A DNA stretch of 64,000 nucleotides. It comes from Mugil cephalus (taxonomy: Eukaryota > Chordata > Actinopteri > Mugiliformes > Mugilidae). Under the pieces are notes generated by a model, which saw nothing but the letters and a program-made list of their open reading frames with translations, did no database searches and was not told the origin of the DNA. The translations under genes and the position numbers were made by a program. This document shows, piece by piece, positions 3,624 to 23,532 of this stretch; the stretch's first letter is position 1, and every line of letters begins with the position of its first letter. The stretch covers positions 10,818,413 to 10,882,412 of the forward strand of contig NC_061783.1 of the NCBI RefSeq assembly GCF_022458985.1. The letters are read 5' to 3'.

Positions 3624-3872
3624 CCTTCCTCATACATCATCGCCTACATTGATAAACAATCGGTGGCATGGTGTAACTTACTTTTTTTTTAACGCTTTCA
3701 GTTTGTTGTTGATGACGTGAAGAATGGACCGGTCAAACCCACGCTCTTTCAAAAGGCTGCTGATATTAGAATAAATTAATTCAATTGTCCTTATTTTGAC
3801 ATTTTTTCCCGGTCTCTGGTGCACTCAGGAGGACGTGGCCCAAAGCGGCAGTGATACCTTCTATAGTTGACA

Positions 3873-4055
3873 GTTACCATGGAAACGAACAGGGCTTGCT
3901 CTTTGATGACGTCATCACGAAGTCATCATGACGTAAGGCCACGGAGGAACCGAGGTTTTAAATACAGGTCTTCTATCAGTCATCTGGCAGAATCTGTCAT
4001 CCTGACGGATGCATGAGGACCCCCCTCCTTACAGTAACTGTATGGAGGGGGGTCC
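3873..4055 (+). promoter_or_regulatory. promoter-like block, array unit 1
   Basis: In order: X-box-like GTTACCATGGAAAC (3873-3886; RFX consensus), perfect CRE TGACGTCA (3907-3914) with a further CRE half-site (TGACGTAAG) 17 bases on, TATA-like TTTAAATA (3957-3964), and a hairpin at 4017-4055. The hairpin has a 12-bp perfect stem (ggacccccctcc with ggaggggggtcc) extended by tacag/ctgta. A perfect 22-bp palindrome follows at 4105-4126. An open frame of 76 codons (4013-4243) starts in the hairpin. Promoter function is inferred from motif order only. Confidence 0.5.
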
Positions 4056-4473
4056 GGGTCACAGATCAGCTGCACACTAGCACAGAGACCCGATGGGTGC
4101 GTTGCAGAGACTCTGCAGAGTCTCTGACAGTTCTGTGCCTGGCCTGTGCTTTTGGACAGCAGACCTGTGACCGCATCCTGCACCAGGAGACCCCACAGGC
4201 AGGGACGCTCTCAAGGAGCCTTAGAGTGTCTTTGTTTGTGTAGCCATCGTGCTATATGAGGGGTAACAGGTTCATCATCTCATTCACTGGGTATGAGTGT
4301 GATGGTGTTGAGCAGAGCAACACTGTATCAGTCACTATGGTCAGGAGAAGCGAATTGCATTGACCATCTTGTGACAAGGCAAAGTTCTACTGCGAAACTT
4401 TGTAAACTTTGTCACAGAGGTCAAGTGTCTGTGGTATAATTAACATTTGTGTTTTTTCCGTTTTCTCTTTTAG

Positions 4474-4981
<508 letters not shown>

Positions 4982-5430
4982 ATAACACACACAAACACAC
5001 ACACTTAACATGGAGATTTGAATAAATCCCTGTGTCCTGCACAGTGGCCGATGCCACAGAATGGAAAATCGATAAATTATTGCAAATATGTTTTGTTTTT
5101 TTATTAGGACAATAAAAGATAATTGCTTTTCCGTCCATTAGATGGTGCTGTTTTTCTGGTGTGTGGAGGAGGCAGCTGGAAGCAGCTGAAACGGAAGTGC
5201 GGGTATTAGAGTAGAAAAGCTTTCCTTTCAGGCCATGATTTGCAGTTGAAACCATGCCACAATTTATCCCAGCACATACTATGTCATCACAATTCAAAAT
5301 GTTAAAAGCAATGAAGATTGTATCATGACTTAAGTACGATGATCACAGCGTATCATTTACAGTAATTATTCCTGGAAATGTCAAAAATAAATTTCTTCAA
5401 CAGCTTCCTGCACCAAAAAAAGTTCAGGAG

Positions 5431-5758
5431 ATGCAGATCAGGACGGAGAAGTTTGGAGCTCAGCTGTCCTCCATTGATCCGACTGTCGCCGCTCACAGAG
5501 CTGCGCTCATGAAGCGCACCACCTACCTGGCTAAGATCGCTTTCGTCCTCCGAGATGCTCCATGCAGGATGTTATTTTCAGGTTCCAATGGTCCCAGATT
5601 CACCGAAAAGTACAAGGAACTACTGGAAGCTGGACTGTAGTCAGATCACTACAAAGATGGTGCGTCGTCACTTTAAAGAAATCCTGCAGCTCTTCCCCGA
5701 GTTGGCCTCCAAAGTGGAAACAGAGAACCTGAGCAGAGCATCAGAGGAAAACTCAGCC
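5431..5758 (+). pseudogene. forkhead-like fragment, unit 1
   Basis: Bases 5431-5571 match coding exon 1 of Fox-A at 15,661. The sequence then jumps directly to the end of intron 2 (ttattttcag) and exon 3 from 5582, cut off at 5758 after ...AAACTCAGCC. The end of exon 1, intron 1, exon 2 and most of intron 2 are therefore deleted, which removes the recognition helix. Reading through gives a 69-codon frame ending at 5640 that is frameshifted after residue 48 or so. The source gene looks like Fox-A/Fox-B. Confidence 0.85.
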
Positions 5759-6017
5759 TTCCTCATGCATCATCGCCTACATTGATAAACAATCGGTGGC
5801 ATGGCGTAACTTACTTTTTTTTTAAACGCTTTCAGTTTGTTGTTGATGACGTGAAGAATGGACCGGTCAAACCCACGCTCTTTCAAAAGGCTGCTGATAT
5901 TAGAATAAATCAATTCAATTGTCCTTATTTTGACATCTTTTCCCGGTCTCGCTGTATTTACTGATGCACTCGGGAGGACGTGGCCCAAAGCGGCAGTGAT
6001 ACCTTCTATAGTTGACA

Positions 6018-6200
6018 GTTACCATGGAAACGAACAGGGCTTGCTCTTTGATGACGTCATCACGAAGTCATCATGACGTAAGGCCACGGAGGAACCGAGG
6101 TTTTAAATACAGGTCTTCTATCAGTCATCTGGCAGAATCTGTCATCCTGACGGATGCATGAGGACCCCCCTCCTTACAGTGACTGTATGGAGGGGGGTCC
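6018..6200 (+). promoter_or_regulatory. promoter-like block, array unit 2
   Basis: X-box-like site at 6018-6031, CRE at 6052-6059, TATA-like site at 6102-6109 and perfect hairpin at 6162-6200, all intact with the same spacing as in unit 1. One base in the hairpin loop differs from unit 1 (gtgac instead of gtaac). The downstream 76-codon frame is altered near its end by a one-base change in a C run. Confidence 0.5.
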
Positions 6201-6602
6201 GGGTCACAGATCAGCTGCACACTAGCACAGAGACCCGATGGGTGCGTTGCAGAGACTCTGCAGAGTCTCTGACAGTTCTGTGCCTGGCCTGTGCTTTTGG
6301 ACAGCGGACCTGTGACCGCATCCTGCACCAGGAGACCCCCAGGCAGGGACGCTCTCAAGGAGCCTTAGAGTGTCTTTGTTTGTGTAGCCATCGTGCTATA
6401 TGAGGGTAACAGGTTCATCATCTCATTCACTGGGTATAGTGTGATGGGTTGAGCAGAGCAACACTGTATCAGTCACTATGGTCAGGAGAAGCATTGCATT
6501 GACCATCTTGTGAAGGCAAAGTTCTCTGCGAAACTTTGTAAACTTGTCACAGGTCAAGTGTCTGTGGTATAATTAACATTTGTTTTTTTCCGTACTCTTT
6601 AG

Positions 6603-7020
6603 GTGGCCAGGTCTGACAGAATATCCTGATTTCTAAAGTCACTGAAGGGGTCAACGACTTGCGAGTTCCATGTGCCATTCAGTTATGGATTGTAAGTTAT
6701 GGAGGAGCAGGTTGCACAAAAGGAGCATACCTTCACTAAAGGAATTGTATTTCAGACGTCGTACGTTTGGTTTGGACATGAATGGCTTGCAAACTTCTTG
6801 GATCGGCACCATGGCCCTCAAGCCCTTGGAAATCTCTTACACCCATGGGTTGTTGCAAAATTTCAATTATCAAATACAAAAGATATGAGTTCAAAGTGTA
6901 AAGTGTCCTTTTTTTTCTTTTCAGTGATTGGGTTTGCGAGATCTAAAACTCTGTTTGACAAGCAATTGCAACAAGCAGTCCATTACTACAACATGCACAG
7001 TCTTTGGCTCAAGGGCAAAC
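6603..7020 (+). pseudogene. GH31 fragment, unit 2 (badly degraded)
   Basis: The three GH31 exons can be followed by short matches (aggtggccaggtctgacag..., ctgtttgaca..., catgcacagtct...). Many bases are missing throughout and no frame survives. The losses are small and scattered, unlike the clean exon borders in units 1 and 5. Confidence 0.7.
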
Positions 7021-7472
7021 GTCTGCTGTTGGCATTTTTCCTTCTTTAGCCAGTCAACACAACCATCCCACAAAGACACCAACACTTAAATGGGATTTGA
7101 ATAATCCTGTCCTGCACATGGGTATGATCAGAATTGGAAATCGATAAATTTTGCAAAAGTTTTGTTTTTTTTTTGACAAGAAAGATAATTCTTTTCCGTC
7201 CATTGTAGGGCTGTTTTTCATATTGGGAGGAGCGACAAGGTTGAACAAGAAGTGCTGAGATCTTAGAGTAAAAAGCTTTCCTTTCAGCCAATTTCACATT
7301 AAAACCATACAAAATTTATCCAGAATCTAGTCATTTTTCATTTCAAAATGTTAAAAGCATGAAGATTGTTCATACTTTGAATGATGCTCAACAGAATCAT
7401 TTACATAATTATAACTGAAATTTGAAAAATGAAATTTCAAACAGCTTCCTGCACCAAAAAAGTTCAGGAAGA

Positions 7473-7763
7473 TGCAATCAACGAGAAGTTTGAGCTCAGT
7501 CCCCATGATCCGACAGTCGCCGCTCACAGAGCTGCCTATGAAGCGCACCTACCTGGCATGCACGTTGACACTCGATGTTCATGCAATGGTTTATTTTCAG
7601 TTCCAATGGTCACAGATTCATTCCGAATATAAAGGACTACTGAATGCTGGATGTAGTCAGAGTCACTAAAAGTGGATGCGTTCACTTTAAAGAAATCCTG
7701 GCATTTCCCGAGATGGCCTCGTAGGCAAATTGAGTTGAACCATGCAGCACAAGGAAAATCCAG
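7473..7763 (+). pseudogene. forkhead-like fragment, unit 2 (badly degraded)
   Basis: Recognisable from gaagatgcaatcaacgagaagtttgagctcag onward and again at ttattttcagttccaatggtc. It has the same exon-1-to-exon-3 deletion as unit 1, plus many small losses. It ends at the usual unit junction (ccagccttcctc). Confidence 0.7.
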
Positions 7764-7984
7764 CCTTCCTCTATGCATCATGCATTAATAAACAAACGGT
7801 GATCTACTTACTTTTTTTTAAACGCTTTCATTGTTATGATGATCTGGAAAATGGACAGTCAAACCAGCTCTTTAAAGCTCTCGATAATAAGATAGAATTC
7901 AATTCGATTGTTGGATCTTTCCGTTCCGTTTGACTGTGCATCAGGGACGTGGCCCAAGAAGCGCACACTACCTCTATAGTTTAC

Positions 7985-8154
7985 GTTACCATGGAATCGA
8001 ACAGGGCTTGCTCTTTGTACGTCATCACGATCATCATGTACTAAGGCCACGGAGGAACCGAGGTTTAAATACAGCTTTCAGTCGTCTGGCAGAATCTGTC
8101 TCCTGTCAGGATGCATGAGACCCCCTCCTTACAGTGACTGTATGGAGTGGGGGT
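7985..8154 (+). promoter_or_regulatory. promoter-like block, array unit 3 (damaged)
   Basis: X-box-like site (GTTACCATGGAATC) at 7985-7998. The CRE is broken (ttgtacgtca), the TATA-like TTTAAATA is at 8063-8070, and the hairpin at about 8119-8154 is imperfect because both stem strands changed. Confidence 0.4.
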
Positions 8155-8485
8155 CCGGGTCACAGATCAGCTGCACACTAGCAAGGACCGATGGGTGCGT
8201 TGCAGTGAGACTCTGCAGATTCTGACAGTTCTGTGCCTGGCTGTGCTTTTGGACAGCGGACCTGTGACCGCATCCTGCACCAGGAGACCCCACAGGCAGG
8301 GACTCTCAAGGAGCCTTAGAGTCTTGTGTTGTCTAGCATCGTGCTTTGTGAGTACACAGCGTCATCATCATGGTGAGTGGGGTAGACAAATGTTCATCAC
8401 TTTCAAAGTGCATTGCCATTGTGCAGGCAAGTTCTGCAATTGTAAATTAGACATTTGTTATTTTGTTTTTCCTTTTCTCTTTTAG

Positions 8486-8927
8486 GTTGGGCCAGGTCTG
8501 ACAGCATATCCTGATTTCTCCGATGAAGTGACAACGACTTGCAGAAGTTCCATGTGCCATTTGATGGGTTATGGATTGTAAGTTATGGATTGAAGACAGT
8601 GTTGCACAAATTCTATATTCTCCCTGACGTCGTCTCCTTTGGTTTAGGACATGAATGAGCTATCAAACTTCTTGGATGGATCGACCAATGGCTGTCCATC
8701 AAGCCCTCTTGAAATCCTCTTACACCCAGTGGGAGCAACAAATTTCACATATACACACAATACAAAGATAGAGTCTCAAAGTGTAAAGCTGTCTTTTTTT
8801 CTTTTCAGTGTACTGAGGGTTGCTGAGATCTAAACTCTGTTTGACACGGCTCAACAGAAGCAGTCCATACATTACAACATGCACGTCTCTATGGACTCAT
8901 GGAAGCAAAAGCCTCTGCGTGGCCATC
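8486..8927 (+). pseudogene. GH31 fragment, unit 3
   Basis: Exon 1 is 8486-8577. It lacks 16 bases found in units 1 and 5 (after gtgac), removing the PEWWY region and shifting the frame. Exon 2 starts at 8648 and keeps the nucleophile motif [12 protein letters not shown] but loses bases near its end. Exon 3 starts at about 8809. The 16-base loss is shared with unit 4. Confidence 0.8.
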
Positions 8928-9360
8928 TAACACACACACAAACACACACACTTAACATGGAGATTTGAATAAATCCTGTGTCTGCACAGTGGCCGATGCC
9001 ACAGAATGGAAAATCGATAAATTATTGCAATATGTTTTTTTTTATTAGGACAATAAAAGATAATTGCTTTTCCGTCCATTAGATGGTGCTGTTTTTCTGG
9101 TGTGTGGAGGAGGCAGCTGGAAGCAGCTGAAACGAAGTGCGGTATTAGAGTAGAAAACTTTCCTTTCAGGCCATGATTTGCAGTTGAAACCATGCCACAA
9201 TTTATCCCAGCACATACTATGTCATCACAATTCAAATGTTAAAGCAATGAAGATTGTATCATGATTAAGTACGATGATCACAGCGTATCATTTACAGTAA
9301 TTATTCTGGAAATGTCAAAATAAATTTCTTCAACAGCTTCCGCCCAAAAAAAGTTCAGAG

Positions 9361-9678
9361 ATGCAGATCAGACGGAGAAGTTTGGAGCTCAGCTGTCCTC
9401 CATTGATCCGACTGTCGCCGCTCACAGAGCTGCGCTCATGAAGCGCACCACCTACCTGGCTAAGATCGCTTTCGTCTCCGAGATGCTCCATGCAGGATGT
9501 TATTTTCAGGTTCAATGGTCCAGATTCACCGAAGTACAAGGAACTACTGGAAGTGACTGTAGTCAGATCACTACAAGATGGTGCGTCGTCACTTTAAAGA
9601 AATCCTGCAGCTCTTCCCCGAGTTGGCCTCCAAGTGGAAACAGAGACCTGAGCAGAGCATCAGAGGAAAACTCAGCCT
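9361..9678 (+). pseudogene. forkhead-like fragment, unit 3
   Basis: Same structure as the unit 1 fragment. Repeated single-base losses relative to units 1 and 4 (for example caaagatgg to caagatgg, cgtcctccg to cgtctccg, gagaacctg to gagacctg) destroy the frame. Nearly all differences are deletions. Confidence 0.8.
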
Positions 9679-9914
9679 TCCTCATGCATCATCGCCTACA
9701 TTGATAAACAATCGGTGGCATGCGTAACTTACTTTTTTTTAAACGCTTTCAGTTTGTTGTTGATGACGTGAGAATGGACCGGTCAAACCCACGCTCTTTC
9801 AAAGGCTGCTGATATTAGAATAAATAATTCAATTGTCTTATTTGACATTTTTCCCGTCTCTGGTGCACTCGGAGGACGTGGCCCAAAGCGCAGTGATACC
9901 TTCTATAGTTGACA

Positions 9915-10097
9915 GTTACCATGGAAACGAACAGGGCTTGCTCTTTGATGACGTCATCACGAAGTCATCATGACGTAAGGCCACGGAGGAACCGAGGTTT
10001 TAAATACAGGTCTTCTATCAGTCATCTGGCAGAATCTGTCATCCTGACGGATGCATGAGGACCCCCCTCCTTACAGTGACTGTATGGAGGGGGGTCC
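9915..10097 (+). promoter_or_regulatory. promoter-like block, array unit 4
   Basis: X-box-like site at 9915-9928, CRE at 9949-9956, TATA-like site at 9999-10006 and perfect hairpin at 10059-10097. The 76-codon downstream frame (10055-10285) is open. Confidence 0.5.
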
Positions 10098-10417
10098 GGG
10101 TCACAGATCAGCTGCACACTAGCACAGAGACCCGATGGGTGCGTTGCAGAGACTCTGCAGAGTCTCTGACAGTTCTGTGCCTGGCCTGTGCTTTTGGACA
10201 GCGGACCTGTGACCGCATCCTGCACCAGGAGACCCCACAGGCAGGGACGCTCTCAAGGAGCCTTAGAGTGTCTTTGTTTGTGTAGCCATCGTGCTATATG
10301 AGGGGTAACAGGTTCATCATCTCATTCATTGTTGAGGGTGGGTGCAAGCATGTTCTGTCATAGGTAAATTAACATTGTGGGTTTTGTTGTTTTTATTCTG
10401 CTCCTTTTCTCTTTTAG

Positions 10418-10873
10418 GTTGGGCCAGGTCTGACAGCATATCCTGATTTCTCCGATGAAGTGACAACGACTTGCAGAAGTTCCATGTGCCATTTGATGGG
10501 TTATGGATTGTAAGTTATGGATTGAAGACAGTGTTGCACAAGAATCTAATTCTCCTGACGTGTCTCCTTAGGTAGGACTATGAATGAGCTATCAAACTTC
10601 TTGATGGATCGACCAATGGCTGTCCATCAAGCCCTCTTGAAAATCCTCCTTACACCCCAGGTGGGAGGCAACAAATTTCACATATACACACAAATACAAA
10701 AGATATGAGTCTCAAAGTGTAAAGCTGTCCTTTTTTTTCTTTTCAGGTGTACTTGAGGGTTTGCTGAGATCTAAAACTCTGTTTGACACGGCTCAACAGA
10801 AGCAGTCCATACATTACAACATGCACAGTCTCTATGGACTCATGGAAGCAAAAGCCTCTGCGTGTGGCCATCT

Positions 10874-10874
<1 letters not shown>
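10418..10874 (+). pseudogene. GH31 fragment, unit 4
   Basis: Exon 1 (10418-10509) has the same 16-base deletion as unit 3. Exon 2 has a disturbed start (cttaggtaggactatgaatgag) but a good end at 10660. Exon 3 starts at 10747 with the extra G that units 1 and 5 lack, so here exons 2 and 3 join in frame (PG-VLEGLLRSKTLFDTAQQKQ). No unit has all three exons intact. The fragment runs into a long CA microsatellite. Confidence 0.82.
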
Positions 10875-10876
<2 letters not shown>

Positions 10877-10946
<70 letters not shown>

Positions 10947-10950
10947 ACAC
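10877..10950. repeat. (CA)n microsatellite, about 37 units
   Basis: Almost uninterrupted AC dinucleotides with one A insertion near the end. The other array units have only short CA runs here, so this copy has expanded. Confidence 0.97.
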
Positions 10951-11375
10951 TTAACATGGAGATTTGAATAAATCACTGTGTCCTGCACAGTGGCCGATGC
11001 CACAGAATGGAAAATCGATAAATTATTGCAAATATGTTTTGTTTTTTATTAGGACAATAAAAGATAATTGCTTTTCCGTCCATTAGATGGTGCTGTTTTT
11101 CTGGTGTGTGGAGGAGGCAGCTGGAAGCAGCTGAAACAGAAGTGCAGGTATTAGAGTAGAAAAACTTTCCTTTCAGGCCATGATTTGCAGTTGAAACCAT
11201 GCCACAATTTATCCCAGCACATACTATGTCATCACAATTCAAAATGTTAAAAGCAATGAAGATTGTATCATGACTTAAGTACGATGATCACAGCGTATCA
11301 TTTACAGTAATTATTCCTGGAAATGTCAAAAATAAATTTCTTCAACAGCTTCCTGCACCAAAAAAAGTTCAGGAG

Positions 11376-11703
11376 ATGCAGATCAGGACGGAGAAGTTTG
11401 GAGCTCAGCTGTCCTCCATTGATCCGACTGTCGCCGCTCACAGAGCTGCGCTCATGAAGCGCACCACCTACCTGGCTAAGATCGCTTTCGTCCTCCGAGA
11501 TGCTCCATGCAGGATGTTATTTTCAGGTTCCAATGGTCCCAGATTCACCGAAAAGTACAAGGAACTACTGGAAGCTGGACTGTAGTCAGATCACTACAAA
11601 GATGGTGCGTCGTCACTTTAAAGAAATCCTGCAGCTCTTCCCCGAGTTGGCCTCCAAAGTGGAAACAGAGAACCTGAGCAGAGCATCAGGGGAAAAGTCA
11701 GCC
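11376..11703 (+). pseudogene. forkhead-like fragment, unit 4
   Basis: Almost identical to the unit 1 fragment, including the 69-codon read-through frame (11,376-11,585) and the deletion joining exon 1 to the end of intron 2. Small differences occur near the end (catcaggggaaaagtc). Confidence 0.85.
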
Positions 11704-11962
11704 TTCCTCATGCATCATCGCCTACATTGATAAACAATCGGTGGCATGGCGTAACTTACTTTTTTTTTAAACGCTTTCAGTTTGTTGTTGATGACGTGAA
11801 GAATGGACCGGTCAAACCCACGCTCTTTCAAAAGGCTGCTGATATTAGAATAAATTAATTCAATTGTCCTTATTTTGACATCTTTTCCCGGTCTCGCTGT
11901 ATTTACTGATGCACTCGGGAGGACGTGGCCCAAAGCGGCAGTGATACCTTCTATAGTTGACA

Positions 11963-12145
11963 GTTACCATGGAAACGAACAGGGCTTGCTCTTTGATGAC
12001 GTCATCACGAAGTCATCATGACGTAAGGCCACGGAGGAACCGAGGTTTTAAATACAGGTCTTCTATCAGTCATCTGGCAGAATCTGTCATCCTGACGGAT
12101 GCATGAGGACCCCCCTCCTTACAGTGACTGTATGGAGGGGGGTCC
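11963..12145 (+). promoter_or_regulatory. promoter-like block, array unit 5
   Basis: X-box-like site at 11963-11976, CRE at 11997-12004, TATA-like site at 12047-12054, perfect hairpin at 12107-12145. The 76-codon frame (12103-12333) is open. Confidence 0.5.
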
Positions 12146-12563
12146 GGGTCACAGATCAGCTGCACACTAGCACAGAGACCCGATGGGTGCGTTGCAGAGA
12201 CTCTGCAGAGTCTCTGACAGTTCTGTGCCTGGCCTGTGCTTTTGGACAGTGGACCTGTGACCGCATCCTGCACCAGGAGACCCCACAGGCAGGGACGCTC
12301 TCAAGGAGCCTTAGAGTGTCTTTGTTTGTGTAGCCATCGTGCTATATGAGGGGTAACAGGTTCATCATCTCATTCACTGGGTATGAGTGTGATGGTGTTG
12401 AGCAGAGCAACACTGTATCAGTCACTATGGTCAGGAGAAGCGAATTGCATTGACCATCTTGTGACAAGGCAAAGTTCTGCTGCGAAACTTTGTAAACTTT
12501 GTCACAGAGGTCAAGTGTCTGTGGTATAATTAACATTTGTGTTTTTTCCCTATTCTCTTTTAG

Positions 12564-13076
12564 GTTGGGCCAGGTCTGACAGCATATCCTGATTTCTCCG
12601 ACAAAGTGACATCTGAATGGTGGTACAACGACTTGCAGAAGTTCCATGTGCCATTCGATGGGTTATGGATTGTAAGTTATGGATTGAAGACAGTGTTGCA
12701 CAAAGAGGAAGCAGTGACCTTCACTTAAAGGAACTATTGTATATTCTCCCTGACGTCGTCTCCTTTGGTTTAGGACATGAATGAGCTATCAAACTTCTTA
12801 GATGGATTGACCAATGGCTGTCCATCAAGCCCTCTTGAAAATCCTCCTTACACCCCAGGTGGGAGACAACAAATTTCACATATACACACAAATACAAAAG
12901 ATATGAGTCTCAAAGTGTAAAGCTGTCTTTTTTTTTTCTTTTCCAGTGCACTTAAGGGTTTGCTGAGATCTAAAACTCTGTTTGACACGGCTCAACAGAA
13001 GCAGTGCATACATTACAACATGCACAGTCTCTATGGACTCATGGAAGCAAACGCCTCTGCGTGTGGCCATCTATAA
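12564..13076 (+). pseudogene. GH31 fragment, unit 5
   Basis: Exons 12564-12671, 12774-12858 and 12947 to about 13076. Exons 1-2 are full length and in frame, as in unit 1 (one residue differs: TSEWWY against TPEWWY). Exon 3 shares the missing G of unit 1. Units 1 and 5 thus form one subtype, units 3 and 4 another. Confidence 0.85.
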
Positions 13077-13480
13077 CACACACACACACACACACTTAGC
13101 ATGGATATTTGAATAAATCACTGTGTCCTGCACAGTGGAATGGAAAATTTATAAATGATTGCAAATATGTTTTGTTTTTTGTTTTTTGTTAGGACAATAA
13201 AAGATAGTTGCTTCCGTCTATTAGATGGTGCTGTTTTTCTGGTGTGTGGAGGAGGCAGCTGGAAGCAGCTGAAACAGAAGTGCGGGTGTTAGAGTAGAAA
13301 AGCTTTCCTTTCAGGCCATGATTTGCAGTTGAAACCATGCCACAATTTATCCCAGCACATACTATGTTATCACAATTCAAAATGTTAAAAGCAATGAGTA
13401 TCGTATCATGACTTAAGTACGATGATCACAGCGTATCATTTACAGTAATTATGCCTGGAAATGTCAAACATAAATTTCTT

Positions 13481-13865
13481 CAACAACTTCTGCACCAAAA
13501 AAGTTTTATTTTGTCCTGCAAGAAATACTGGAACTCACTGCAGTGAGATCACAGATAAGATGGTCTGCTGTCACTTTGAAGGAATCCTGCAGCTCTTCCC
13601 TGGATACTCTACTCAGCCTGCAGAGGTGTTCAGATCAGATGTGAGGTGAAGTTCAGCCTCCAGAGCTTCTGCTGCTTCAAATTTTCGCTCGACAGGAGGC
13701 TGCATGTATCATGGGCACGCTGCTAATGGCTAATGCTCTTAATCCCACAACGAAGAGGCCGGTACACTGAACCGTCATTCCTCAAATACCCTGCACCTTA
13801 TTTCACCTGCAGAGACGACAGTCAAGTCACTTACTGTGAGCCGGTTTCTGTGCTTTATACCTGAT
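13481..13865 (+). pseudogene. older forkhead-like exon 3 remnant, unit 5
   Basis: After the usual upstream sequence, exon 1 is missing and the text goes straight to a diverged exon 3 (gaaatactggaactcactgcag..., gatggtctgctgtcactttgaaggaatcc). Internal deletions follow, then a piece matching the gene's 3' coding end (aagaggccggtacactgaac...). It is more diverged than the forkhead pieces of units 1 and 4 and reaches further 3', so it is probably an older relic next to which the array grew. Confidence 0.7.
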
Positions 13866-14524
13866 AGGTAAGCATTTTGCAGCAGAGTGAAAGTCTATCT
13901 GGATGTGTGCTGTTACTCAGACTGCAGTGTTTCACCTTTCTAAGTTAATGTAACAGACACTACATGCATGTATTTTTCTCTCTGATAACACAGACTACAC
14001 ATCTGAGTGATGGTCACATTCCAGTGAACAATCTAATCACATTCCAACACTTCACACATGTGTCATCTCCCCTCATAATCAAACCTGATGCCTTTTTGTC
14101 CCATACAATGACAGGGTCATTTACATCAGTGATCCTCATTCTGATTCATCAGCACATTAGCTGTGGTCAAGGTTTTGTGGGAAAAAAAAGTTTTGGTTGT
14201 TTTTGTTCATTTTTACATACCATAATGTTGTTGTAGGGTGTGTATCTGCATCTGCCTTTATTATTTCTTCTTTGGTATATTTAAAAGGAGGATTCTCCCT
14301 AAATGTGTTATCTTCTATTAAAACTAAATTAAAATTAATTTTAGGTACTAAAGCATTTGTCCTACACAACATCAACATGCAGCACACACACAAATATGAT
14401 TTTATATAATAATGTTTAAATAAAAATGCTTGCCATTTTAAGAAACATCTAAAAAAAAAAAAAAGTAACCCCTGAAATAATTACCTCTGTGTTAGTGGAA
14501 AAAAACTCTTTCTGTTGAGCTCGC
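13866..14524. other. intergenic, with partner of the right inverted arm
   Basis: Bases about 13,965-14,130 are inverted copies of about 21,670-21,850 (shared words such as cacagactacacatc, atcacattccaacactt, gatcctcattc). The rest, about 14,130-14,524, is AT-rich and unmatched. No gene seen. Confidence 0.6.
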
Positions 14525-15479
14525 TGAAGTGAATGTGACTGAGGTCCAGATGAGGTGTAAATTGCTGGAATGCGATTGAAGACGTTTCACATTCAGGTCA
14601 GCTGTGTTATGTTTGTTGTAACTGTTACATTCCAGTGACCGACGCCTCATCAGTCACTGATTCACTCTGTTGTGAACGAGCACACTATAGTTTAAACTAG
14701 ATTTATCCACTGAATATTTAAATTAAAACAACTGCTCAGATAGACAACATAGTCTATTTGAAACTTTATAAAATATCATTACTATAAATAAAAATCAGTG
14801 AGGTGTGTTCTTTAGTTTATAAAATATAGTGAATTTCTGTAGAAAATAAAATAAATAATTGCAGCCTCCATACAGAAATAAACCCAAATAGCTTGTTATA
14901 GACTTTAATAAGAATCTCCTGTTGTAAAAGACCTAAATAAATTTATTGAACCACTATTTTATCAACACTATGTCAACATCCTGGTAAAGTCTGCTGCTAT
15001 TTGAACCACACATGTTCATGAAACTACAATGATTGTAGGTGTCAACACATTAAGTCACATGTAGAGGATAAATGTTCATGCCCTCATTTAATATAAATCG
15101 CTGAAACTGGACTAATAATTTCTATACTTATTTGACAAGCACTTTCGTATTTTTTGTGTCATGTGGAAGATGGTTAAGTGTGTTTTAGATGAGCTACACA
15201 ACTTATTATCATGTCCATAATCCTGTGTGATAACATGCTAAATGATAACAACATGAGAGGATACTGACTGTGGAAGGAAGTTTCATGTGGAGCACGTTTA
15301 TTAAATGAAACAAAGTGTTTGTCTGAAAATGAAACCACCCACAAAGAACATGTGTTTTCAGTTCAGTTTATATGTTTGTAATATTTAAATAGTGTTTTAA
15401 AAAAACTTGAGTCATAGAGACAGAGGGATTTGAGGGATTTTTACAGAAATATCTGAACTTTAGAGAATGGACTGTTACT

Positions 15480-15660
15480 GTGATCTCTGGCTCCACCTCC
15501 AGCATTAATGGCTCGTCTTCCTTTGAATAGGTGCTCATTAACCTGCAGTGCACACCCTCTAATGTCCTTTTGTTCCAGCTAGGCTTATATCCAGAGCTGA
15601 ACCCTTCAGGTCCACTTCAGCGCTCAGTGAGCTTTGGGTCAGAAGTCTCCAACAAACAAG
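15480..15660 (+). promoter_or_regulatory. probable promoter and 5' UTR of Fox-A
   Basis: A block containing ctcattaacctgcagtgcacacc, then taatgtccttttgttcc and TTATAT (15,585-15,590), precedes the start codon. The same order of words occurs upstream of Fox-B (inverted) and, more diverged, upstream of Fox-C at about 22,370-22,430. Preservation over the diverged C copy suggests a shared core promoter. The exact start site is not visible. Confidence 0.45.
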
Positions 15661-16737
15661 ATGCAGATCAGGACGGAGAAGTTTGGAGCTCAGCTGTCCT
15701 CCATTGATCCGACTGTCGCCGCTCAAAGAGCTGCGCTCATGAAGCGCACCACCTACCTGGCTAAGATCGCCTTCGTCCTCCAAGATGCTCCATGCAGGAT
15801 GCTCCCTTTCACTCAGGTAAGAAAGAGCCAAGACATCTGAAATAACCAGCGCACCACAAGTATTTACAATTTAAAATCCTCTTGAACTTGATGTTTTGCA
15901 GTTGATGGACAAACTGGAGCCGCTACTTTGTGAAGAGAGAAAATTTGTTGAGAACAACATCAGAGTCTGTTTGTCAGCAAACGGGTGTTTTGTCAAGGTA
16001 AGTTTCATATTCTACTGTTTATATTACACCAGCTACTTTACTTTAAGGACCAGGTGACTACTGATTGCTGTCTATTAACTGAACTGTGCTGGTCTTATTT
16101 TCAGGTTCCAATGGTCCCAGATTCACCGAAAAGTAAAAGGAACTACTGGAAGCTGGACTGTAGTCAGATCACTACAAAGATGGTGCGTCGGCACTTTAAA
16201 GGAATCCTGCAGCTCTTCCCTGAGTTGGCCTCCAAAGTGGAAGCAGAGAACCTGAGCAGAGCATCAGAGGGAAACTCAGCCGTCCGATCTCCTGAACCTG
16301 CAGCCTGCAGAGATGTTCAGATCAGATGTGAGGTGAAGTTCAGCAGTCCTTTCTCCATTGAATCCCTCCTGAAGAGAGACGGCCCCTCTGCTCAGGCCTC
16401 CAGAGCTTCTCCTCTGTCCAGTGTCCAGGTCAGAGTGGAGCAGCAGCCTCTGTCCACACACAGACGAGCTGGGACAAAGAGAAGCATCAGCTGGGACTCT
16501 GAGGAACTTCTCCTTCAAACTTCAGCTGCAAGTTTCCCCATCTGCTCAGCAGGAGGCAGCACACACCACAGACCCACTGCTAGTCAGGATGCTAAACCCT
16601 TCAAGAAGAGGCCCGTGTACTCTGAACCCTCAGTCCCTGTCAGTGCAACAAATCCATATTTCACCAGCCCGCATAGCAGTTACCTCACTTACTCTGTACC
16701 AGCCTTCAATCACAGTGCTCTTCGTCTATGGCTCTGA
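15661..16737 (+). CDS. divergent forkhead-like gene Fox-A (three exons, 294 aa)
   Basis: Exons 15661-15816, 15902-15997 and 16105-16737, all phase 0 with GT-AG sites; stop TGA. The forkhead (winged-helix) region spans about residues 29-115: TTYLAKIAFVLQDAPCRMLP matches helix 1-2, ENNIRVCLSANGCFVKVP (69-86) the recognition helix, and KRNYWKLD (95-102) the first wing. After it come PFSIESLL (166-173) and a Ser/Pro-rich tail. The spacing VPxxPxxPKxKxNYW and the FSI.SLL motif resemble FoxH1/FAST, the Smad2/3 partner in Nodal signalling; that assignment is inference. The domain is unusual: the Trp and the base-contacting His of the recognition helix (WxNSxRHxLS) are replaced (Val74 for His), so DNA binding may be altered. 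ATG 15,661 is the first in frame; the frame extends upstream without another ATG. AATAAA lies at 16,788-16,793. Confidence 0.75.
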
Positions 16738-16800
16738 TGTGTTTTGTACTTTTGTACTGTACAAATTTGTAGCTTTATATTTTTGCTAATAAAACAAACA

Positions 16801-18439
16801 ACAAAACAAAAAATGAACGTGTTAACCCTAATTTTTCTACTGAAGACATGGTATTAGCAGGAAATCATGATACACACCATGCCTAATAATTTAATAATTT
16901 CACTGTAGGACTACCACAGTCCAAGTGATAATTATATAAGTATATAAGTAAGTATATAAGTAAGTATATATATATCTATAAGTATCACCATGCACTGAAT
17001 TTGTACCACTATTTAGTAAGTATTATATGCATATGTATGCTGTGTAAAGCATTAAAAGTAAAATATGCAGAATATTTGGAAGTAGTAGGAGGTTAAATGT
17101 TGTGTTGTGTTCTGCCCCTCAGTGGTGGAAAGGAAATTCAGCTTTAGGTCAAGTCCTTTCTGTGACTGTGGATTATTGGTATCACTTTAGTGAAGTCAGT
17201 GTCTCTTTACTCCAGCAGTGCACAGAATCTCACACAACACAAGGTTATGGGAGAGATAGAACAATGAACAGAAACCGTACTCATACACAACGGTGGATTA
17301 TCTTCACAGCAGTGGGTTATCTTCAGTACACATCATGCTACCCAGCAACAAATAAGTTATCTCTTCTCTGGAAAGACGCAATAACTACTTTGAGGTGACA
17401 CAAAGTCCTCAGGCCTCCTACGCTCTCCCTGAGCTGATAGGTTCTCTACAGAAACAGGGCATGAATACAACCTGTTCACTAAACCTTTAAAATATTTTTC
17501 ATTTGATATTTATCAGTTGGTCGACACTTACTAGATTTAAACCTAGACAGACATTGCTGATTCCCAAGGGAGATTATTCGTCACAGTAGCTCAGTGACAC
17601 ATTAAACATACATATTGTAGCTGTTTTACTGTTTTATTTAAACTCTATAAAAACTATAAAACTATAAACTATAAGCCATAAAACAACACGTGCTGCTCCA
17701 CGAAATTACAGCTTCTCCCATTCCATCAGGGCCCCTCTCCTAGGTGTGTCATCGTAAACAGCATGGAGGATTGTGGGAACTACGCTTCCAGATCCAGACA
17801 CTCCTAGCCACACCTACACAGGAGAGTAAGCAGCAGCAATAAAGACCGAGCCAAGCCAGGCCACGGTCTGTTTGACCTGACATCATAGGGTAAAGATACA
17901 AGACTGTTAAAACATGGACTAAGACAGAGGAACATTGACTTCCCCACAGCTGTAGTTCACAGAAACAGCTTGTATTTATTAGGTCAGTGTGAGCCACTTT
18001 TGTAAATATTCATCCTGCATCACTTAATATAAATTGTCTGAATGGTTATTCAGACAATTTATATTAAGTGATGCAGGATGAATTTTTGGAATAAAATGAT
18101 AATATTTACAAAAGTGGCTCACACTGACCTAATAAATACAAGCTGTTTCTGTGAACGTCCCCTGATACTGAATGATGAGGTGAAAATCGCTGGAATGTTG
18201 CCAAAAGCTTCCAGAGCAAACCTGTATTGTTCATGTTTGAGCACCCACTTTACACTGTGTGTCACCCCATTTATCTCAGCCATTGTCTCTGATGGTAATA
18301 TCCTGTGAGAAGGCAGCGCTTCCTGAGCATCTATTATAATAATACACTAGATCTTCACATCATAAATGCTGTAATGTACAGTATATTATAATTTACTGGT
18401 GCTATTATTAACATTTTCTGTTGATGTACACCATGCCAC
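16801..18439. other. spacer between the inverted arms
   Basis: Holds an AT-rich simple stretch (about 16,930-16,985, TATAAGTA-like), unmatched sequence with only short random frames, and the fold-back at 17,955-18,156. No gene seen. Confidence 0.6.
17955..18156. repeat. perfect fold-back inverted repeat
   Basis: Inner stem: 18,011-18,043 pairs with 18,048-18,080 over 33 bp without mismatch around a 4-base loop (ggtt). Outer stem: 17,955-18,010 pairs with 18,101-18,156 over about 56 bp. A 20-base insertion (18,081-18,100) lies on one side only. It could be a young fold-back element or the scar of a template-switch event at the centre of the larger inverted duplication. Confidence 0.93.
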
Positions 18440-18519
18440 GTAAATACAACGCGTACCAGTTATTATTTTTTTCAATGTTTATTGAAAAGTGCTGCAGAGT
18501 GCTCAGGTACAAAAACACA

Positions 18520-19608
18520 TTACAGCCAGTAACGCAGAGAACCATGGGTAAATGCCGGTACAGAGTAAGTGATGTAACTGTTGCTTGTGCTGGTGAAACA
18601 AGGAGCAGGACTGTCTCTAGATGGATAGATGGGAAATGAGGGTTCAGAGAACACGGGCCTCTTCTTGAAGGGTTTAGCATCCTCACTAGCAGTGGGTCCG
18701 TGGTGTGTGCTGCCTCCGGCTGAGCAGATGGGGAAACTTGCAGCTGAAGTTTGAAGGAGAAGTTCCTCAGAGTCCCAGCTGATGCTTCTCTTTGTCCCAG
18801 CTCGTCTGTGTGTGGACAGAGGCTGCTGCTCCACTCTGACCTGGACACTGGACAGAGGAGAAGCTCTGGAGGCCTGAGCAGAGGGGCCGTCTCTCTTCAG
18901 GAGGGATTCAATGGAGAAAGGACTGCTGAATTTCACCTCACATCTGATCTGAACATCTCTGCAGACTGCAGGTTCAGGAGATCGGACGGCTGAGTTTTCC
19001 TCTGATGCTCTGCTCAGGTTCTCTGTTTCCACTTTGGATGCCAACTCAGGGAAGAGCTGCAGGATTCCTTTAAAGTGCCGACGCACCATCTTTGTAGTGA
19101 TCTGACTACAGTCCAGCTTCCAGTAGTTCCTTTTACTTTTCGGTGAATCTGGGACCATTGGAACCTGGAAATAAGACCAGCACAGTTCAGTTAATAGACA
19201 GCAGTCAGTAGTCACCTGGTCCTTAAAGTAAAGTAGCTGGTGTAATATAAACAGTAGAATACGAAACTTACCTTGACAAAACACCCGTTTGCTGACAAAC
19301 AGACTCTGATGTTGTTCTCGACAAATTTTCTCTCTTCACAAAGTAGCGGCTCCAGTTTGTCCATCAACTGCAAAACATCAAGTTAAAGAGGATTTTAAAT
19401 TTTAAATTCTTGTGTTGCGCTGGTTGTTTCAGATGTCTTGGCTCTTTCTTACCTGAGTGAAAGGGAGCATCCTGCATGGAGCATCTTGGAGGACGAAGGC
19501 GATCTTAGCCAGGTAGGTGGTGCGCTTCATGAGCGCAGCTCTTTGAGCGGCGACAGTCGGATCAATGGAGGACAGCTGAGCTCCAAACTTCTCCGTCCTG
19601 ATCTGCAT
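18520..19608 (-). CDS. divergent forkhead-like gene Fox-B (three exons, 298 aa)
   Basis: Minus-strand exons 19608-19453, 19367-19272 and 19164-18520, with the same splice phases as Fox-A; first exon 156 bp, second 96 bp, third 645 bp. The first 84 residues are the same as Fox-A as far as I can read. The exon-3 core differs by a few residues (for example VETENLSRASEENS against VEAENLSRASEGNS). The last 40 or so residues diverge clearly (FSEPSFPIYPSRDSPAP... against YSEPSVPVSATNP...). The recognition helix again reads ENNIRVCLS, without the histidine. AATAAA on this strand lies at 18,483-18,478. The shared FSIESLL motif is kept. Function is as uncertain as for Fox-A; no stop codon or splice defect is seen. 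Confidence 0.75.
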
Positions 19609-19790
19609 CTTGTTTGTTGGAGACTTCTGACCCAAAGCTCACTGAGTGCTGATGTGGACCTGAAGGGTTTAGCTCTGGATATAAGCCTAGCTGGAACAAA
19701 AGGACATTAGAGGGTGTGCACTGCAGGTTAATGAGCACCTATTCAAAGGACGAGCCATTAACGCTGGAGGTGGAGCCAGAGATCACAGTA
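19609..19790 (-). promoter_or_regulatory. probable promoter and 5' UTR of Fox-B
   Basis: Inverted copy of the Fox-A upstream block: the TTATAT word, the taatgtccttttgttcc word and the ctgcagtgcac word occur in the same order on the minus strand. Differences from the Fox-A copy are few. Confidence 0.45.
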
Positions 19791-20803
19791 ACAGTCCATT
19801 CTCTAAAGTTCAGATATTTCTGTAAAAATCCCTCAAGTCATTATTGATTTTCTGCCTAGTTTTACTAAAAACATTAATATTAAAATCAATGTTTCTAAGA
19901 TGATCCATGTGAAGGAGAGTTTCATTTTGTCTCTATGACTCAAGTTTTTTTAAAACACTATTCAAATATTACAAACATATAAACTAGCTGAAAACACGTG
20001 TTCTTTGTGGGTGGTTTCATTTTCAGACAAACACTTTGTTTCATTTAATAAACGTGCTCCACATGAAACTTCCTTCCACAGTCAGTATCCTCTCATGTTG
20101 TTATCATTTAACATGTTATCACACAGGATTATGGACATGATAATAAGTTGTGTAGCTCATGTAAAACACACTTAACCATCTTCCACATGACACAAAAAAT
20201 ACGAAAGTGCTTGTCAAATAAGTATAGAAATTATTAGTCCAGTTTCAGCGATTTATATTAAATGAGGGCATGAACATTTATCCTCTACATGTGACTTAAT
20301 GTGTTGACACCTACAATCATTGTAGTTTCATGTGTGGTTCAAATAGCAGAAGACTTTACATAGTGTTGATAAAATAGTGGTTCAATAAATTTATTTGGGT
20401 CTTTTACAACAGGAGATTCTTATTAAAGTCTATAACAAGCTATTTGGGCTTATTTCTGTAAGGAGGCTGCAATTATTTTATTTCCTGCAGAAATTCACTA
20501 TATTTTGGAAACTGAAGAACACACCTCACTGATTTTAATTTATAGGAATGATATTTTATGAAGTTTCAAAGAGACTGTGTTGTCTATCTGAGCAGTTGTT
20601 TTAATTTAAATATTCGGTGAATAAATCTAGTTTAAACTATAGTGTGCTCGTTCACAACAGAGTGAATCAATGACTGATGAGGCGTCGGTCACTGGAATGT
20701 AACAGTTACAACAAACATAACACAGCTGACCTGAATGTGAAACGTCTTCAATCGCATTCCAGCAATTTACACCTCATCTGGACCTCAGTCACATTCACTT
20801 CAG

Positions 20804-22370
20804 TTTTTCTTTTTTTCCCGCTGAATTAAAAAGCCATGTGTTTTTATTTTAACATTATTACAATAAAACTATGATCTGATGTGTTGGACAGACACAGAAT
20901 AACATCTAAGATTAAATTATTATTTATTAAATCTGAACACATTTAGGGAGAAGTACAAATAATAGATGCAAAACAGTTAAAATCACACGGCCTCAAACCA
21001 ACAATACAAATGTAGAAGTGTAAGTACAGACAATGAGATCAATAAACAAAGAAATAAGACAATTTGTCGAAGAATATTCCAATATGTGGGACCCGGTGAA
21101 ATTAATAAGATAATGATACCTAAGACAAAAAATAAATGTGGGAATAAAATGTCAGTGGAAACTAAGTCTTGTTGTCATCAGTTAATTATGTATTGTCAGG
21201 AAATTAGATGAAAAAAATAAATAAATAAAGCCAAGAAATTATTTTTTTTTCTCCTTGGCAGAGAACCAGTTCTTTTGATGGTGTATTTCGATTCAGAATA
21301 CAGTTTTGATTTTATCACAGATAAATTAAAAACCTCACTGAAGGCACTGTGTCTGTTTCTCTTATCAGTACTACGCTGCTCTCATGGATATGGCAGTTTA
21401 ATTCAAACAGAAAAACTCTAGGCATTTGTTGCAAGTTTTATTTTATTCAATACTACCCTTACATCTTGATTGACTTATTACAGTCCTGCAGCATCATCCA
21501 GATACCTTAATAAACTTTTTTATTTTTTTTTTCAAACAGACCCCAGATCAGCTCAGCGCTTCCAATCAAAGACAAGTCAAACCAGCTGGTGTGACCCTGT
21601 CTCAGCCGTTCATCTGAGCCCATTTCTGAAGCTGTTTTTCCACCAAGCCTTGAACACAGGTAACGTGTTGATGAATTTGAATGAGGATCACTGATGTAAA
21701 TGTACTTGTCATTATAAAAGACAAAAGGTTTGTTTTGGAAGGAGAGGCGAAAGATGTGTAAAGTGTTGGAATGTGATTAAGTTGCTCATTGGATCACTCG
21801 GATGTGTAGTCTGTGTTATCAGAGCAGCCTTTACGGAGAAAAACATCCCTGTCTTCTCTCTTACATCAACTAAAAGTGACATAAATGCACATATGTGATG
21901 TGCTGGTATAATTTAAATTTGAGGATTAGACTCTGCTGAGCTGTTTCAGTGCACATTGTAAATCCTTAAGTTTTTATTTTCAAACTAACACAAATGGTTT
22001 CAAGTTAAATTCACATGCTTTATGGAAAGTTATGTGGTGTAGTTTTCCGGGTAGCCTCTTTACTACGAACAAATCTCCCTTTTTACCAAACCGCTGTTGC
22101 ATTTTCAATTTGATTACATGTTCAGGATGAGATATGGATATTATAAAAAAATAAAATAAAAAATAACTGCACCTTAAACAGTATAACAATTTAATTTACA
22201 AAGCAGTGGTTGAAGTACTTTCTCCTACTTCATTGTTTAGCTTGTATTATAGATGTCTGGTTTGATTTAAAGTCAGAATCTCAAACATATTTATTTATGC
22301 AAATGAGCTTCTGAGTAATGACCTCTGGCCTCACCTCCTGTATTCATCTTATCATCTCATGAAAGGTTGC
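20804..22370. other. intergenic between Fox-B and Fox-C
   Basis: Mostly AT-rich and unmatched. About 21,670-21,850 is the inverted partner of 13,965-14,130, so the duplication once reached further and was interrupted here by about 870 bases. An exon-like segment (about 21,539-21,660, flanked by ttttcaaacag and ggtaacgtg) has splice-site look but no frame I recognise. Confidence 0.5.
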
Positions 22371-22501
22371 TCATTGACCTGCAGTGCACAGCCTTTAATG
22401 TCCTATTGTTCCATCAGAGCTTCTATCCAGCGTGGACCACATCAGCCCTCACTGGGGTTGTCACCTGCAGCGCATTGTAGGGACTCCCCTCGGCAAAGAA
22501 G
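22371..22501 (+). promoter_or_regulatory. probable promoter and 5' UTR of Fox-C
   Basis: Contains ctcattgacctgcagtgcac, taatgtcctattgttcc and an interrupted TATA-like word (ttctatcc), in the same order as upstream of Fox-A and Fox-B but with substitutions. Confidence 0.4.
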
Positions 22502-23532
22502 ATGAACGAGAAAGAGAAGCTGGGAGATCAGCTGCACCAGCTACTTCAGTTAAGAGAGACCACCACATATCTGGCAAAGATTGCCGTCATCCTCCGAAAT
22601 ACACCAGGCAACATGCTCACTTTCAATCAGGTAAAAAACTATTTTATTCCTCATTAAGAAATCTTCAGCATGAGGTATCACTTGTTATTTACATCTTCTA
22701 ATTACAACCTGGTGTTTTGCAGCTGATGGACACGATGGAACCACTAATGAGTAAAGACAGAAAATCTGAGAACAACGTCAGAATCTGCTTATCAACCCAC
22801 AAATGTTTTGTCAAGGTAAGTTTTTATAATAAATGAACTACTTTACTTTAAGGACTAAATGCATTAACTAAACTGTGTATTTCTTTTATTTTTCAGATTC
22901 CAATAGTCCTTGAGTCACGGAGATGTAAGGGAAACTACTGGAAGCTGGACTGCAGTCAGATCACTACAAAGATGGTGCGTCGTCACTTTAAAGGAATCCT
23001 GCAGCTCTTCCCTGAGTTGGCCTCCAAAGTGGAAGCAGAGAACCTGAGCAGAGCATCAGAGGGAAGCTCAGCCGTCCGATCTCCTGAACCTGCAGCCTGC
23101 AGAGATGTTCAGATCAGATGTGAGGTGAAGTTCAGCAGTCCTTTCTCCATTGAATCCCTCCTGAAGAGAGACGGCCCCTCTGCTCAGGCCTCCAGAGCTT
23201 CTCCTCTGTCCAGTGTCCAGGTCAGAGTGGAGCAGCAGCCTCTGTCCACACACAGACGAGCTGGGACAAAGAGGAGCATCAGCTGGGACTCTGAGGAACT
23301 TCTCCTTCAAACTTCAGCTGCAAGTTTCCCCATCTGCTCAGCAGGAGGCAGCACACACCACGGACCCACTGCTAGTCAGTATGCTAAACCCTTCAAGAAG
23401 AGGCCTGTGTGCACAGAGTCCTCTTATCCCGTCTATACCGGAGCTAGTCATGATCCTTATTTCACCGGCCCAAGCAACAGTTACATCACTTACTCCGTAC
23501 CAGCATTTACCCATGATGGTCTGCGTTTCTGA
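22502..23532 (+). CDS. divergent forkhead-like gene Fox-C (three exons, 285 aa)
   Basis: Exons 22502-22630, 22723-22815 and 22897-23532, all phase 0; stop TGA. The first exon encodes a start unlike A and B (MNEKEKLGDQLHQLLQLRET) followed by the same forkhead opening TTYLAKIAVILRNTPGNMLT. Exon 2 encodes a recognition helix ENNVRICLSTHKCFVK, again without the histidine (Ile in its place). From GNYWKLDCSQITTKMVRRHF on, exon 3 is almost identical to Fox-A at the DNA level for roughly 470 bases. It then diverges again in the last 40 residues, which end SYITYSVPAFTHDGLRF. The conserved frame in diverged exons 1-2 argues that this family is, or recently was, under coding constraint. The FoxH1-like assignment carries the same uncertainty as for Fox-A. 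Confidence 0.75.

Follow-up and report, generated by a model that had tools for sequence, protein, structure and literature searches.

Three fast-evolving forkhead genes, most likely derived from foxh1, have lost the recognition-helix histidine in Mugil cephalus

The window analyzed here, a stretch of 64,000 nucleotides from Mugil cephalus (contig C14, positions 10818413-10882412, in a genome of 634.8 Mb and 24 contigs), contains three spliced forkhead genes with open frames, A (+), B (-) and C (+), which encode proteins of 294, 298 and 285 amino acids, respectively, and in which the histidine of the recognition helix is replaced. All introns, two per gene, have GT-AG borders (6/6) and lie in phase 0, in agreement with the open frames and matching intron phases that a first-pass annotation, made from the letters alone, had attributed to them. 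The same annotation spoke of a three-gene cluster, which is correct in number, but A and B are nearly identical copies in inverted orientation, and gene C is a diverged one. Of the window's 214 open frames with at least 70 amino acids, 40 were scanned against Pfam. The features of the three genes are as follows.

15481..15594, + strand: proximal upstream block common to A, B and C, 79% identical between A and C (22319-22430)
15661..15816, + strand: gene A exon 1, start of the forkhead domain, donor GTAAGAAAGA
15902..15997, + strand: gene A exon 2, contains helix 3
15953..15976, + strand: gene A helix-3 motif NNIRVCLS, Val for His
16105..16737, + strand: gene A exon 3, wing 1, EH1 and tail
16351..16371, + strand: gene A EH1-type motif FSIESLL, residues 167-173
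base 51 past the stop, + strand: start of gene A AATAAA
19453..19608, - strand: gene B exon 1
19272..19367, - strand: gene B exon 2, helix 3 NNIRVCLS at 19293-19316
18520..19164, - strand: gene B exon 3, EH1 at 18898-18918
base 37 past the stop, - strand: start of gene B AATAAA
22502..22630, + strand: gene C exon 1
22723..22815, + strand: gene C exon 2, helix 3 NNVRICLS at 22771-22794
22897..23532, + strand: gene C exon 3, EH1 at 23143-23163

The upstream block, about 110 bases in length, is more alike among the three genes than the far flank and is a possible promoter. In the coding-sequence alignment, every gap run is a multiple of 3 (6/6; 12 in A, and 3, 24, 3, 3 and 6 in C). The lack of stops by itself is weak evidence, because simulations that place as many substitutions as observed at random leave the frame open in 0.17 of cases for exons 1-2 and in 0.42 for the tail.

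All three proteins pass the 27-bit cut-off of the Pfam Forkhead profile PF00250, gene C with 34.8 bits (E = 1.8e-8) and genes A and B narrowly, with 28.4 (1.8e-6) and 28.3 bits (1.9e-6); the forkhead match thus exceeds chance, and the forkhead identity proposed in the first pass is upheld. A genome scan with the same profile reports 89 places, among which A, B and C are missing because that scan reads single exons. Helix 3 reads NNIRVCLS in A and B and NNVRICLS in C, so that the trio of base-contacting residues, Asn, Arg and His, is incomplete in 3/3 genes: Asn and Arg are kept, and His has given way to Val (A, B) or Ile (C), as had been noticed at first sight. By comparison, the histidine is present in 42/42 other forkheads from the same genome, 27 of them read within a single exon and 15 assembled by eye from exon pieces with splice sites mostly unchecked, and in 4/4 FoxH1 rows. 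This set, which also served for the tree, leaves out L057-L059, L063 and L064 (presumably FoxP-like), L075-L080 (which we take to be FoxO-like), the partial L067, identical copies and the unfetched places among the 89. The helix-3 pieces that were viewed at these left-out loci carry His, except one exon of L057 (C4:27011000-27013800), outside the 42-forkhead count. This extra helix-3 exon reads QGAIRTNLS, with Thr for His; we assume that L057 is FoxP-like and that the exon resembles exon 18b of FOXP1, which replaces the forkhead histidine.

In FoxH1, helix 3 touches bases with Asp143, Arg146 and His147, and the minor grooves are contacted by wing 1 (Lys160 and Lys168), by wing 2 and by the N-terminal loop (PMC9701222, in part). 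These places were located in A, B and C by counting by hand on the alignment from the printed residues. The Arg146 and Lys168 places hold Arg and Lys, respectively, in 3/3 genes, the Asp143 place is Asn in 3/3, and the Lys160 place is Met in A and B and Ile in C. Hence, the first-pass statement that the asparagine is kept holds against classical forkheads but not against FoxH1, which has Asp there (PMC9701222, in part). In the same alignment, a gap of three residues precedes helix 3, and the N-terminal loop of FoxH1 could not be recognized by eye. At the helix-2 place occupied by Tyr in other Fox proteins, the three genes have the non-aromatic Met; in FoxH1, Leu or Ile replaces this Tyr (PMC9701222, in part). 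Taken from these letters, altered DNA binding by A, B and C is a fair inference.

The canonical foxh1 lies on another contig (C18:3885550-3887880) and consists of three exons, with a model of 528 amino acids (start codon assumed) and a helix 3 of DSVRHNLS; since it retains its His, A, B and C are extra paralogs. Its introns, both in phase 0, interrupt KKLTLSE/ILQEIS and CFVK/VLKD (the slash marks the break), and those of A, B and C fall in the same phase at the same aligned residues, LPFTQ/LMDKL and CFVK/VPMV. The first position is found in 0/25 other split forkhead loci read, the nearest break being that of L065, about six codons later and in phase 2. L065 resembles a croaker foxr1 primer sequence printed in PMC11591422 and looks like foxr1. 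The introns add independent evidence for kinship with FoxH1. Another locus, C20, of which two exons matched, was considered as foxh1 but dropped, as its sequence resembles what is presumably FoxJ1.

Similarity scores and trees give a compatible picture. Among solved structures, protein A best matches the FoxH1 chains 7yzb (47.4 bits) and 7yz7 (37.4), and next, at 35, come FOXA-type chains together with the third FoxH1, the best non-H forkhead having 35.1; we take 7yz7 to be fish, 7yzg frog and 7yzb human. Against 46 forkhead rows, all four FoxH1 rows score highest with A, and with C three of them lead, whereas two other rows come in ahead of the frog one, which ranks sixth. A, B and C group with the 4 FoxH1 rows at 100/99 in a 49-row tree, as they do when the L065 row is freed of intron letters (100/99). 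They sit inside the FoxH1 group next to the human row, a position that may be long-branch attraction; once the frog and human rows are removed, the two fish FoxH1 become their partners (95/92, with a warning of long branches). A clade of A, B and C with L065 is rejected (p 0.031). The stem of the three genes measures 2.68 changes per site, which bears out their description as fast-evolving. A genome protein search with A yielded, among the best candidates, at least 44 matches, 15 in the window at 58% identity or more and at least 29 at other places at 27-41%. Both the refuting outcomes named in the first pass, no significant profile match and a placement in another known subfamily with the same helix, failed to appear, and descent from FoxH1 is most likely for A, B and C. 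The grounds on which the FoxH1 likeness had been suggested, FSIESLL and a Ser/Pro tail, are weaker, given that EH1-like motifs are known in ten Fox subclasses (PMC1939712, in part) and that the C-terminal half is not significantly FoxH1-like, as detailed below; the name fits on account of the tree, the scores and the introns.

In the effector half, the FxIxxLL-type heptad FSIESLL (EH1) is present in 3/3 genes, beginning at residue 167 in A and B and at 157 in C, and the C18 FoxH1 has an EH1-type motif, FAIDSLL, at residue 293. PPNK is the Smad-interaction motif; it occurs in 0/3 of the genes and at residue 490 of the C18 FoxH1. Zebrafish FoxH1 carries FAIDSLLH (PMC1939712, in part). An end-to-end alignment of the three C-termini with FoxH1 was abandoned after failing shuffle tests, and the last part of the C-terminal half is matched equally well by 686-1684 of 2000 shuffles.

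Genes A and B lie in the arms of an inverted repeat, and part of exon 3 forms a tract of near identity among all three genes.

14524..16749, + strand: left arm of the inverted repeat with gene A, two matched blocks, 95.0-95.1% against the right arm
18507..20803, - strand: right arm of the inverted repeat with gene B
16171..16550, + strand: homogenized tract in gene A exon 3, 98.5-99.6% against C and 97.7-99.2% against B

The spacer between A and B holds a palindrome at 17955-18156, whose arms are each about 100 bases long (self-match 80%). Outside the tract, A and C share 48-82% over exons 1-2, the introns, the DNA upstream and the opening 66 bases of exon 3; the 52% seen upstream is barely above unaligned sequence. 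The synonymous divergence (dS) between A and C falls from 0.549 in exons 1-2 to 0.037 in the tract, which selection on the protein does not explain but gene conversion or a like exchange does, and the observed near-identical tract score is reached in 0/10,000 permutations each for A/C, B/C and A/B. The effector half of exon 3 has thus very probably been homogenized among A, B and C by gene conversion. Thus, A/B and C have different forkhead halves, but all three genes share EH1 and the sequence around it. At the 3' coding tails (B near 18520-18630, A 16628-16737, C near 23420-23532), B resembles C more closely than it does A, its inverted twin, with identities over the final 110 coding bases of 81.5% for B/C, 70.0% for A/B and 67.3% for A/C, a sign of further exchange.

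Upstream of gene A, a locally repeated array at 3.6-13.5 kb (3624-13505) is associated with four fox fragments and one exon 3 fragment, and two other genes occupy the flanks.

1-988, + strand: last exons (3' end) of what we take to be a beta-catenin gene
5429..5762, + strand: fox fragment in which most of exon 1 runs straight into the intron 2 end and exon 3 start, without exon 2, frame broken
7469..7720, + strand: fox fragment of the exon 1 to exon 3 kind, more diverged (80-84%)
9359..9681, + strand: fox fragment of the exon 1 to exon 3 kind
11374..11707, + strand: fox fragment of the exon 1 to exon 3 kind
13522..13657, + strand: fragment of fox exon 3, matched in two short pieces
45823-49423, - strand: exons of a CCN-family gene, Pfam IGFBP, VWC, TSP1_CCN and Cys_knot

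With exon 2 absent and frames broken, the upstream fragments are ruled out as genes. A 661-base part of the array unit has at least 59 genome matches, 9 of them in the array (40 of 781 candidates scored), and is a dispersed repeat. The CCN gene is presumably CCN4/WISP1-like; one of its exons has 10 genome matches, including 1 in the window and 0 on C18, the contig of foxh1. As far as this single gene goes, nothing suggests that C14 and C18 are sister regions.

The explanation that we consider the most probable, though by no means assured, is that A, B and C are foxh1 paralogs acting as Smad-independent, Groucho-coupled repressors of altered or weakened DNA specificity. A three-exon foxh1-like gene would have been copied between the beta-catenin and CCN genes, multiplied and diverged very fast. 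The forkhead would still fold and read DNA through the Arg (Arg146 place), the Asn and the wing-1 Lys (Lys168 place), with a specificity probably weaker or shifted, because other residues stand at the His147, Asp143 and Lys160 places and neither wing 2 nor the N-terminal loop of FoxH1 can be recognized. The EH1 motif would recruit Groucho/TLE. Since the Smad motif is not found in A, B and C, the proteins would not answer to Nodal/Activin and would repress constitutively; their target sites probably overlap those of FoxH1, and a site of action like that of foxh1, oocyte and early embryo, is a guess. A bolder version, which we regard as rather improbable, pictures a cluster of FoxH1-derived repressors, specific to one lineage, whose repressor half is kept nearly identical by gene conversion while the reader halves diversify; in the oocyte or the early embryo, the proteins would counter or accompany Nodal-FoxH1 control, with a new specificity that arose through loss of an otherwise constant histidine.

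Several results weigh against the repressor explanation and have to be set beside its rivals. The tree, built on 85 columns, has a very long stem and carries long-branch warnings, and in approximately unbiased (AU) tests of five other placements (p 0.111, 0.030, 0.038, 0.046 and 0.079), two stay open (p 0.103-0.111 and 0.077-0.079), such that sequence alone does not close the kinship question. The second intron position also occurs in the forkhead L067. A long wing 2 is not recognizable: the match of the region starting at KLDCS to FoxH1 wing 2 is equalled by 535-579 of 2000 shuffles. Neither is the C-terminal half significantly FoxH1-like, its score being reached by 145-187 of 1000 shuffles unmasked and, after masking of the Ser run, by 135-159 of 2000; because this half lacks significant similarity outside EH1, a Smad region may have been lost or may have become unrecognizable. 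The long stem and the two remaining placements would suit descent from another fast-evolving Fox class, such as FoxR, with the likeness to FoxH1 arising by convergence, but we give this very little credence in view of the first intron position, shared with none of the 25 other split loci read, the rejected clade with the foxr1-like L065, and the tree supports of 100/99 and 95/92.

That the genes are decaying or relaxed duplicates, functionless but still unbroken in a repeat-rich, rearranging region, also appears improbable. Broken fox fragments and the repeat array lie just upstream, the stop-free signal is weak, and gene C has no AATAAA in the 568 bases past its stop, where TATAAA occurs at base 4 and ATTAAA at base 368. 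The ratio of nonsynonymous to synonymous change (dN/dS) is 0.85 in exon 1, 0.59 (0.31-1.08) for A/C over residues 1-97 and 0.45 (0.04-2.79) for helix 3 alone, with bounds that span 1 in each case. On the other side stand the gap runs in multiples of 3, three intact frames with their splice sites, the upstream block that is more alike than the far flank, and the dN/dS of residues 30-97, which is 0.47 (bootstrap 0.23-0.98) for A/C and 0.43 (0.22-0.84) for B/C, two values that are not independent because A and B are nearly identical there. The latter points to mild purifying constraint on the DNA-reading halves of A/B versus C. This constraint speaks as well against a somewhat less remote, though still unlikely, alternative, namely that the proteins are DNA-binding-dead or weak competitors that read no specific DNA and serve only as Groucho sinks or titrate FoxH1 partners. 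The replaced His, Asp and Lys160 places, the gap before helix 3 and the unrecognizable wing 2 would agree with such a loss, whereas Arg, Asn and Lys168 places are retained in all three genes, and FOXP1-ES, with critical residues changed, prefers another motif rather than none (PMC11701043, in part).

As extra copies that combine a repressor-type motif and a changed helix-3 His with no Smad motif found, A, B and C would be a natural experiment on the evolution of forkhead specificity, and they might modify oocyte programmes or Nodal ones. FoxH1 itself is a maternal regulator of the early embryo. Oocytes of tilapia foxh1 mutants are reported not to advance beyond phase II into phase III (PMC10531137, in part), and the paralogs could therefore matter for fish reproduction. 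No paper on divergent FoxH1-like clusters was found among the titles and abstract starts listed from the open-licence literature.

Among known systems, the canonical FoxH1 (C18, and the solved fish, frog and human proteins) shares with A, B and C the forkhead kinship, a three-exon structure whose introns agree in position and phase, an EH1-type motif, and the lack of an aromatic residue at the helix-2 place of Tyr in other Fox proteins, although that place is Met in A, B and C and not Leu or Ile. It differs in having DSVRHNLS, the N-terminal loop, a long wing 2, PPNK and 528 amino acids (C18), as opposed to NN(I/V)R(V/I)CLS, 285-298 amino acids and no PPNK found. The foxh1 of ricefield eel likewise has three exons, is ovary-biased and represses a cyp19a1a reporter (PMC10531137, in part). 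Xenopus FoxH3 (XFast-3) is similar in being an extra FoxH1 paralog of one lineage with effector motifs unlike those of FoxH1; however, it is described as lacking EH1 and predicted to act solely together with Smads (PMC1939712, in part), so that A, B and C represent the mirror case. FOXP1-ES is a vertebrate forkhead whose critical residues are changed and which keeps binding with a preference for another motif, CGATACAA (PMC11701043, in part), but there the change comes from alternative splicing (exon 18b) of one gene and not from gene duplication.

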